Source of the DNA: Bacteroidota bacterium
GTDB taxonomy: Bacteria; Bacteroidota; Bacteroidia; UBA8524
Direction: 5' to 3'
DNA length: 64,000 nucleotides
Assembly (NCBI GenBank): GCA_016124735.1
Contig: WGMZ01000007.1
Location: 1 to 64,000, forward strand
Below the pieces are notes generated by a model, which saw only the letters and a program-made list of their open reading frames with translations, did no database searches and was not told the DNA's origin. Position 1 is the first letter of the stretch. Every line of letters begins with the position of its first letter. Shown piece by piece: positions 5-52,670 of this stretch. A program made the position numbers and the translations under genes.

Positions 5-257
5 TTTAGCAGCGTAGCTGCTTTATTTTGTTGTTCAACTATACATCGAAAATTTGTAAATGCTTATTTCGTTTTAAAGCGAAGCTTCTCGCTTAAAGGC
101 GAAGCCTTTCGCTTACTTCATTTTAGCAGCGTAGCTGCTTTATTTTGTTGTTCAACTATGCATCGAAACTATGTTTTCGCTTCTTTCGTTTTGAAGCGAA
201 GCTTCTCGCTTAAAGGCGGAGCCTTTCGCTTACTTCGTTTTAGCAGCGTAGCTGCTT
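5..257. repeat. 117-bp tandem repeat made of GNA-loop mini-hairpins
   Basis: The word AGCAGCGTAGCTGCT recurs at 8, 125 and 242, an exact period of 117 bases, giving two full units and the start of a third. Each unit holds three short inverted repeats whose loops are all GNA: AGCAGC-GTA-GCTGCT, AAGC-GAA-GCTT and AAAGGC-GAA-GCCTTT. In unit 2 the last loop is GGA. All seven cores read GCGNAGC (12, 79, 99, 129, 196, 216 and 246). The array lies directly 3' of miaA, whose stop codon is at 262-264. The sequence shows the repeats. The special stability of GCGNAGC DNA hairpins is established knowledge. Any function is unknown. Confidence 0.9.
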
Positions 258-261
258 CATT

Positions 262-1155
262 TTACGGGTGCAGCGCATTCTCTATCGCGCTCTTTGCCTG
301 TTCCAGCCCAAAAACTTCGGTATAATTGCCTTTGTTCCGAAACCAGGTTAGTTGTCGCTTGGCGTAGTTGCGTGTATGCTGTTTGATTTTTGTTACCGTG
401 GTTTCCAAATCCATCAATCCATCGAGATGATCGAATAATTCCCGGTAGCCGACTGTCTGCAATGCAGAGGAGTCGCGAAGCGGAACCAATGCTTCAACTT
501 CTTCGTATAAACCCATCTCCATCATGGTATCTACTCGCTGATCTATTTTTTGATAAAGCTCTTCGCGATCCATGTTCAAGAACAAAGGAATCACCTGAAA
601 GGGACGGGGCTTTTTTTCGACAACTTCTACGGGCTCTGCGGAGAGGATTTCCAATGCACGAATTACCCGGCGTGGGTTTTTTAAATCCATATTGGCTGCC
701 TTTTCTGGGTCTTGTTGCGTGAGCATTTCAGCCAGTTTCTGAATGCCTTCCTGTTTTAGGATGGATTCTAATTCCTCTCTATATTCTTCATTCGCAGGGG
801 GCAACGGATCAAGCCCTTCTGCCAGCGCTTGCAAATACAACCCAGAGCCGCCGCAGGCTATGACCAAATCCTGCGTTTTAAAGAGCTTTTCCAGCAGGGG
901 AATGGCCTCTTCTTCAAAATCCGCAGCACTCAATGGGTTTTTAATACTGTGACTCTGAATAAAATGATGAGGAGCCATTTGGAGCTCTTCTCCAGATGGA
1001 ACCGCCGTTCCAACGGTCATCTCTTTATAAAATTGCCGGGAATCGGCATTGATTATTTCGCACTTGAATTCGCGGGCCAAATCAATGGCCAGTCGCGTTT
1101 TTCCGGAAGCCGTCGGACCTCCGATGAGAATCAGAAACTTGCTATGTTGGGTCAT
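262..1155 (-). CDS. miaA: tRNA dimethylallyltransferase MiaA
   Basis: This enzyme transfers a dimethylallyl group to the N6 of A37 in tRNAs that read UNN codons. The 297-residue protein has the P-loop GGPTASGKT at residues 12-20, followed by the DSRQFY motif of the family near residue 38, and ends with the basic NYAKRQLTWFRNK segment that is characteristic of MiaA. Length is normal for bacterial MiaA. Its ATG overlaps the stop codon of the upstream gene (TAATG at 1153-1157), so the two are probably translated in a coupled way. The hairpin repeat array begins immediately after the stop and may form the transcript end. Identification is secure. Confidence 0.97.
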   Translation of the reverse strand: MTQHSKFLILIGGPTASGKTRLAIDLAREFKCEIINADSRQFYKEMTVGTAVPSGEELQMAPHHFIQSHSIKNPLSAADFEEEAIPLLEKLFKTQDLVIACGGSGLYLQALAEGLDPLPPANEEYREELESILKQEGIQKLAEMLTQQDPEKAANMDLKNPRRVIRALEILSAEPVEVVEKKPRPFQVIPLFLNMDREELYQKIDQRVDTMMEMGLYEEVEALVPLRDSSALQTVGYRELFDHLDGLMDLETTVTKIKQHTRNYAKRQLTWFRNKGNYTEVFGLEQAKSAIENALHP

Positions 1156-5621: not shown

Positions 5622-5677
5622 GGTTTATGGTTTATTGTTTAGGGTTTAGGGTTTAGGGTGGAGAGTTTAGCGTTTAA
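5622..5677. repeat. Degenerate heptamer tandem repeat upstream of the GT9 gene
   Basis: Eight successive heptads can be read with little interruption: GGTTTAT, GGTTTAT, TGTTTAG, GGTTTAG, GGTTTAG, GGTGGAG, AGTTTAG, CGTTTAA. The tract ends three bases before the GT9 ATG (minus strand), so it fills that gene's leader or promoter. Confidence 0.8.
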
Positions 5678-12224: not shown

Positions 12225-12483
12225 ACATGCATCTCTGCTTCAATACCACTTCTGATTGAAGAGAATCATCCTATTTCTATTTTGTTGTATGTTCATTTTG
12301 TCTTGATGCTTCGACTTTGTTCAGCATAAATTCCAAACACACCAAAAAATCAAGGCCAAAATATGTTTCCCCGCTCTCTGTTTTTTTCTTCCTTTTTTTC
12401 TAAAAAAAAGGAAATAGAAAGAAGGGAAATTGGATTGTGAATCTGTCACTAAAAAGGTTTTGTGGGAAATAAACGGATCACAT
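12225..12483 (+). repeat. Interspersed intergenic element, copy A (core-deleted form)
   Basis: It shares the left segment ATACCACTTCTGATTGAAG, the ATCAAGGCCAAAATATG block, the A/T hairpin CCTTTTTTT-CT-AAAAAAAAGG and the right end ending AAACGGATCACAT with copies B and C. The roughly 260-280-bp core that B and C carry between two TTTTTTTCTT repeats is absent; here one TTTTTTTCTT (12381-12390) remains. An ORF of 63 codons through the right end is judged spurious. It lies between the EgtB-like gene and the methyltransferase gene, filling most of the 430-bp gap. Confidence 0.85.
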
Positions 12484-25476: not shown

Positions 25477-25986
25477 ATGAGTCTCCGTTTCTATACCACT
25501 TGTGATTGAAGAGAATCATCCTATTTCTTGCTTATTGCATGTTCATTTTGTCTTGAACCAAAAAATCAAGGCCAAAATATGCTTCCCCGCTCTCTATTTT
25601 TTTCTTAACGGTCGGCCATTACATCTGGCCTCCCTAAAAAAAACATCACGCCAACGCGCGGCCCGCATTTTGGCCAGCCCACCCGAAAGAAGCTTATCAA
25701 TTTCTTATAGACTGTGACGTGATATTAAGGCGGCGTCAGCAATAGGCGCCTGGCTTCCGGAGATGGGGCACCTGCTGCCTGACGGAGCGTCTGGTTTCTT
25801 CCCTGTTTAAGCGAACAAAGTGAAGCGAGTTTGAAGAAAATAGCGAAGGAAGGCATAGCTGGTCATTGAGGAAGCAAGCGCGATTTTTTTCTTCCTTTTT
25901 TTCTAAAAAAAAGGAAATATAAAGAGGGAAATTGGATTGTTGTATCCGTCAATAAATGGTTTTGTGGGAAATAAACGGATACACAT
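25477..25986 (+). repeat. Interspersed intergenic element, copy C (full length)
   Basis: It has the same order of modules as copy B, with blocks of near identity (GGTCGGCCATT...CATCTGGCC; AACATCACGCCAACGCGCGG). The two TTTTTTTCTT repeats are at 25597 and 25884. Where copy B has the perfect 20-bp palindrome, copy C has a different sequence that can also fold (TTTCTTC / GAAGAAA arms around 25796-25840). The element ends in AAACGGATACACATG just before the degP-like gene terminator. Confidence 0.9.
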
Positions 25987-52626: not shown

Positions 52627-52670
52627 TTTTTGTCTTTTGTACTTTTGTACTTTCGTCTTTTGTACTTTAT
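52627..52670. repeat. Repeated TTTTGTAC-like tract upstream of the WYL gene
   Basis: Repeats with 7-8-base spacing: TTTTTGTC, TTTTGTAC, TTTTGTAC, TTTCGTC, TTTTGTAC. It lies three bases before the WYL start. A -7-like TACTTTTG occurs at 52640. Confidence 0.65.

Follow-up and report, generated by a model that had tools for sequence, protein, structure and literature searches.

A tandem array of GNA-loop hairpins downstream of miaA in a Bacteroidota genome and the loop rule of hairpins around subclass-1.2 Y1 genes

The spacer downstream of miaA in the genome studied here is shown to hold a REP-like cluster of GNA-triloop palindromes with GAAGTAAGC-type linkers, tandem-amplified between two convergent genes in one lineage. 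The same loop rule marks the hairpins around Y1 transposase genes of the little-studied subclass 1.2, for which no hairpin partner had been recorded before.

Results

Architecture of the array

The window, by which we mean the whole 64,000-nucleotide stretch analysed, opens at one end of contig C6, and the array is cut there. TRF describes it as 2.2 copies of a 117-bp period with 91% matches and no indels (Table 1), and the seven GCGNAGC motifs reported by an earlier, sequence-only reading are all in place. Every unit comprises three hairpins with triloops, AGCAGC-GTA-GCTGCT, (G)AAGC-GAA-GCTT(C) and AAAGGC-G(A/G)A-GCCTTT, which bears out the proposed rule of a GNA loop (GTA, GAA or GGA) over three unlike stems. 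The same reading spoke of three distinct stems. These do differ, but the seven motifs are not independent, because they are tandem duplicates of just three hairpins. A diverged 20-bp direct repeat (TRF row 74-115) moreover links hairpin 2 to hairpin 3, and the stem of hairpin 2 is short, at 4-5 bp. The count of GCGNAGC alone was dropped as evidence: the heptamer occurs 44 times in the window against 16.7 expected, and since 37 of these 44 copies lie outside the array, it is the hairpin context that counts.

Table 1. Features of the array, its flank and other intergenic tandem repeats (positions in the window unless a locus is named)
Feature	Positions	Strand	Basis
117-bp tandem array, 2.2 units visible	5..263	.	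TRF, own-genome search, contig ends, sequence
GCGNAGC motifs	12-18, 79-85, 99-105, 129-135, 196-202, 216-222, 246-252		
Hairpin 1, AGCAGC-GTA-GCTGCT, then TTATTTT	8..22	+	
Hairpin 2, AAGC-GAA-GCTT, stem 4 (5 in copy at 193-205)	77..87	+	sequence, aligned copies
Hairpin 3, AAAGGC-GAA-GCCTTT	95..109	+	
Linker CGCTTACTTCATTTT, variant of dispersed CGCTTACTTCGYTTT linker	110..124	+	
Hairpin 1, unit 2	125..139	+	
Hairpin 2, unit 2, GAAGC-GAA-GCTTC	193..205	+	
Hairpin 3, unit 2, GGA loop, same stem	212..226	+	
Linker CGCTTACTTCGTTTT	227..241	+	
Hairpin 1, partial unit 3; ends at miaA stop codon	242..256	+	
miaA (tRNA dimethylallyltransferase, IPPT family)	262..1155	-	ORF, relatives, IPPT family search
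Intergenic tandem repeats	5622-5676, 52628-52668; L021 1618-1712		
Intergenic tandem repeats	L182 3654-3924, 5412-5952; L181 10202-10627		

Among the aligned copies, variation affects 17 of 74 linker positions (about 10 without the left edge of the array), 2-3 of 34 stem positions (one of them at the left edge) and 1 of 9 loop positions. The stems are not significantly more conserved than the linkers (p 0.11), and the earlier suggestion of selection for single-stranded hairpins finds no backing in this comparison. Around unit positions 48-62 one block has two forms, an indication that units were copied from one another. Folded as DNA, the array beats shuffled sequences on both strands (z -3.5 and -3.65), values that any tandem palindromes would give.

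Flanking genes and relatives

A search of the same genome recovered a second piece of the array, 90% identical and in the same orientation, at another contig end (C50:13652-13836). The C50 and C6 copies differ at few positions, and there are therefore at least four partial or whole units; with both halves stopping at contig ends, the visible copy number is a lower bound. The C50 half is preceded by a gene for an outer-membrane-like protein (C50:12603-13568), convergent with miaA, and the left flank of the array (C50:13562-13637) is a plain repeat of the 9-mer GAAGTAAGC. In the genus-mate G003 (locus L123) miaA and the same outer-membrane-like gene are also convergent, their stop codons abutting. 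Because G003 has both flanking genes adjacent, C50 and C6 are very probably neighbouring contigs; and because these genes abut there, the whole miaA spacer is, on this comparison of gene order, repeat DNA gained in this lineage by insertion or expansion. The sequence-only reading had set absence of the array with decayed stems against its own proposal; in G003 the array is indeed absent, but cleanly so. It was not found in four family relatives either, which yielded one weak 22-base match, and G001 has an unrelated 7-mer repeat, (TATTTGG)n, downstream of miaA. Neither flanking contig (C6, C50) contains a Y1_Tnp match.

Several wider identities for the array were rejected. An 18-base pattern of hairpin 3 and linker was found in 96 stretches of the genome_contigs set, one match each, from unrelated phyla, and the resemblance was ascribed to chance rather than to a widespread sequence family. 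Hairpin 1 with its tail was unmatched in viral contigs and the array was unmatched in plasmids, which removed a mobile origin from consideration; as for a known RNA, Rfam matched only a tRNA in the window, its matches to the array being at chance level.

Related hairpins elsewhere in the genome

The repeat survey of this genome sampled 877 kb of 3.1 Mb, with genes masked by ORF length rather than by annotation, and the intergenic DNA of the sample contains several further arrays with units of 76-163 bp. C6/C50 is the sole site of the 117-bp unit: what other loci have in common with it are the linkers and the loop rule, not the stems. Linkers of the CGCTTACTTCG type accompany similar hairpins at other intergenic sites, and CGCTTACTTCGYTTT linkers recur at C25, C27, C34 and C44, and with two mismatches at C3. 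At C27, C3 and C34 the CGCTTACTTCGYTTT-type linkers adjoin hairpins with C-GNA-G loops on new stems, namely TGTTGAC-GTA-GTCAACA, ATTCGC-GAA-GCGAAT and TGCTGAC-GCA-GTCAGCA at C27, GGCTGC-GAA-GCAGCC at C3 and an imperfect stem at C34. Outside the array, triloops are GNA on one strand in 11 of 28 intergenic cases against 25 of 145 coding ones (p 0.02; C-NNN-G triloops of at least 5 bp, distinct sites counted by hand), and of the two refuting conditions set by the sequence-only reading, the one on hairpin frequency therefore turned out in its favour.

The genome also contains many intergenic tandem repeats of other kinds (7-9, 15, 87 and 163 bp; Table 1), and its relatives have heptamer repeats of their own. 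The starts of contigs C34 and C26 (L149 1-517 and L191 1-400) share an 81-bp array with a hairpin element, oppositely oriented, which is either a duplicated repeat or an assembly overlap. An identical 25-base palindrome, a TTCCTTTTTTTCTAAAAAAAGGAA-like hairpin, occurs twice in the window (12389-12413 and 25892-25916).

Hairpins around Y1 genes

A Y1 transposase elsewhere in the genome, for which the sequence-only reading had proposed to look, does exist: one gene is intact (C42, YIKNQVTHH) and one is a remnant (C12). The C42 gene is preceded by a 76-bp hairpin array of its own, and the hairpins beside the genome's own Y1 are partly GNA, with one GGA loop, the others being TAT, TTT and AGA; the Y1 gene of G001 is preceded by a 102-bp array whose hairpins have GGA loops. 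Every intact Y1 protein in the family bears the signature Y---Q--HH ('subclass 1.2'), and this subclass is described as generally without IS200-type end structures and has no REP listed (PMC6006769; open literature searched).

The loop rule extends over the class. Flanks of up to 400 bp around 58 subclass-1.2 genes contain 83 distinct triloops with stems of at least 6, of which 38 are GNA, 22 TNC, which reads as GNA on the opposite strand, and 23 of other kinds, while the flanks of 48 miaA genes from the same class sample give 0, 3 and 6, respectively. GNA on either strand thus makes up 60 of 83 triloops near Y1 and 3 of 9 near miaA, with about 1/6 expected; the corresponding binomial p values of about 6e-29 and 0.18 are nominal, as the loci are not independent and several come from one genome. 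A more cautious figure compares whole loci: a GNA hairpin is present at 22 of 58 Y1 loci against 2 of 48 miaA loci (p 2e-5).

Thirteen flanks at eight loci (L313, L312, L309, L314, L319, L219, L214 and L303) display an element of three hairpins whose centres lie 28-29 and 37-41 nt apart, with differing stems and with GNA loops on one strand; it includes many of the Y1-flank triloops and is inverted on either side of the subclass-1.2 genes. The covariance model R1, built from these thirteen flanks, was applied at comparable thresholds to 243 kb of Y1 loci, where it has 65 matches, and to 182 kb of miaA loci, where it has 2. Among 60 genomes, those with an R1 match number 22 of the 45 holding Y1 and 1 of the 15 without it (p 0.005). 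The copies are dispersed, and in three rich genomes 50 of the 72 matches listed form inverted doublets within 200 bp. In loci outside the training set 21 of 669 ungapped cells hold G-T pairs, which are thus rarer than mismatches, and such rarity suits a fold acting as DNA; the count is biased by the training of the model on Watson-Crick stems. R1 itself is without a meaningful-score match in Rfam. In the window, array included, R1 has no match, and in the rest of this genome its matches are weaker, at 33.8 bits for L149/L191 and 19.3 bits for L152, beside its Y1. The array has the loop rule in common with R1 but is not the element itself.

Discussion

How does the array relate to the palindromic repeats already described? 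Like classical REP/BIME sequences with their TnpAREP (RAYT), it consists of short perfect intergenic palindromes that cluster and follow one another in tandem, and its genome contains a Y1 HUH gene. Unlike these GTAG-tagged elements (Di Nocera 2013, PMC3733652; Quentin 2018, PMC6006769), it has no GT[AG]G within 0-2 nt 5' of a hairpin foot, where the flanks read CGTTTT, GTTTT and CGCTT, no Y---NP tnpA within 1000 nt, the Y1 genes lying on C42 and C12, and few copies of a unit confined to C6/C50 rather than many dispersed copies of one consensus; its stems, moreover, differ freely under one loop rule. It does not resemble IS200/IS605 either, as no transposase lies between the palindromes and the array is flanked by miaA and the outer-membrane-like gene. 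The atypical palindromes of TnpAREP subclass 2.6 (PMC6006769) are likewise found in Bacteroidetes, lack GT[AG]G and form weak or unusual hairpins, but the proteins of that subclass carry Y---NP, whereas the genes here encode Y---Q--HH. In form the array is like R1, whose units of about 100 bp also hold several one-strand GNA triloop hairpins with unlike stems, and all array hairpins are of this kind; spacing and linkers differ, however, and R1 often forms inverted doublets where the array runs head-to-tail. The closing C-GNA-G of the array is identical to that of the stable mini-hairpins of the d(GCGAAGC) type, which are synthetic oligonucleotides from biophysics and aptamer work and imply no genomic function. 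The REP/IS200-type lead of the earlier reading survives in part: the genome has a Y1 gene, and throughout the class GNA hairpins surround Y1 genes that belong to its subclass. Near the array, however, there is no Y1, and the array has neither a GTAG foot nor an R1 match.

The mechanism we favour, tentatively and short of calling it probable, is a loop-reading HUH/Y1 nuclease behind the REP-like array, as the class-wide pattern suggests, and it is plausible that the array would be a substrate of the subclass-1.2 enzyme. Such a nuclease would bind the hairpins on one strand when single-stranded, recognising mainly the GNA loop and the shape and tolerating any paired stem, which would account for a single loop rule that holds over unlike stems. 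The units would then be copied as DNA is cut and re-joined at replication forks, aided by unequal recombination, and on double-stranded DNA the array could, as a side effect, terminate transcription in one direction. In favour of this nuclease are the lineage-specific array, the same-linker hairpins at C27, C3 and C34, the intact Y1 gene and the class-wide GNA rule. The group 3 TnpAREP, which recognises bases in the loop and accepts extensive exchange of the stem (PMC8266576), offers a precedent rather than a test. Against it stand the flanking contigs devoid of Y1, the mismatch to R1, the only partly GNA hairpins of the genome's own Y1, the non-significant stem conservation and the terminator-like character of hairpin 1 and the hairpin-3 region on the + strand; no cleavage-site motif was found for the array.

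An ordinary minisatellite is a serious possibility, if a somewhat doubtful one. The GAAGTAAGC repeat would have lain in a neutral spacer between convergent genes and expanded through slippage and unequal crossing-over, its palindromes arising from template switching at the fork with nothing acting on them. This would account for the position, the simple-repeat flank on C50 and the lineage specificity, and it agrees with the wealth of unrelated intergenic tandem repeats of 7-163 bp in this genome and its relatives, with the different 7-mer after miaA in G001 and with the lack of a stem conservation signal. What it does not predict is one loop rule over unlike stems at several loci, nor the enrichment of GNA in other intergenic hairpins.

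We regard it as unlikely that the array is a tandem intrinsic terminator of the outer-membrane-like gene, shielding miaA from antisense reading. The array has five terminator-like sites, all of them + strand sites that point the same way as the outer-membrane-like gene. On this strand only, hairpin 1 and the hairpin-3 region each present a G+C-rich stem followed by a T run, and a 700-bp region holds 6 such sites against 1.2 in shuffles. The five are nevertheless copies of two, hairpin 2 is without a T tail, G003 manages with abutting stop codons, and the array stands out less when folded as RNA (z -2.5) than as DNA (z -3.5). It also counts against a terminator that RNA terminators are not known to prefer GNA triloops. 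A terminator role would be compatible with either origin, nuclease or minisatellite. The period of 117 corresponds to 39 codons, and a + strand frame (2-325, 107 codons) stays open across the array, but a repeat protein is very improbable: the frame leaves the contig end before any start is seen and, on its other side, reads on antisense into miaA. The C50 left flank, moreover, is simple repeat, and the relatives are without the array. The open frame was judged to be chance.

Known REPs are recognised by a tag and a conserved palindrome. A family of palindromes in which all stems change and only loop, shape and spacing persist would point to an enzyme that recognises the fold of DNA with hardly any regard to sequence, and a candidate function would be at hand for a HUH subclass described in 2018 as without partner sequences. 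The subclass-1.2 Y1 nucleases of Bacteroidota may have their own new class of mobile palindromes, defined by GNA loop and shape in three-hairpin units that often form inverted doublets, with the array as a lineage-specific tandem outgrowth; we put this forward with some reserve. The association of GNA hairpins with Y1 rests on the class-wide counts, and its extension to the array is hypothetical.

Other observations on Y1 loci

Flavo-1 RNA matches lie beside two Y1 genes (L214 2021-2123 and L301 1124-1208); Flavo-1 was rejected as an identity for the three-hairpin element, with E values of 0.0005-0.004, below gathering, and a different structure. Base-pair statistics for A1 were discarded as inflated, since a sequence entered A1 on the strength of perfect hairpins and two or more GNA loops; the weight is placed on the class-wide triloop counts, on the R1 matches in Y1 and miaA loci and on the comparison of 60 genomes. 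Genome G037 has ten R1 matches and no Y1 gene detected, perhaps through a lost gene or an assembly gap. The three Y1 genes of G002 (L126, L130 and L132) are flanked by hairpins under another loop rule, with five-base loops ATAAA, ATGAA, GTGAA or TTTAT instead of GNA, on stems ACAGGT, GTCGGGT and AGAACAGGAT.
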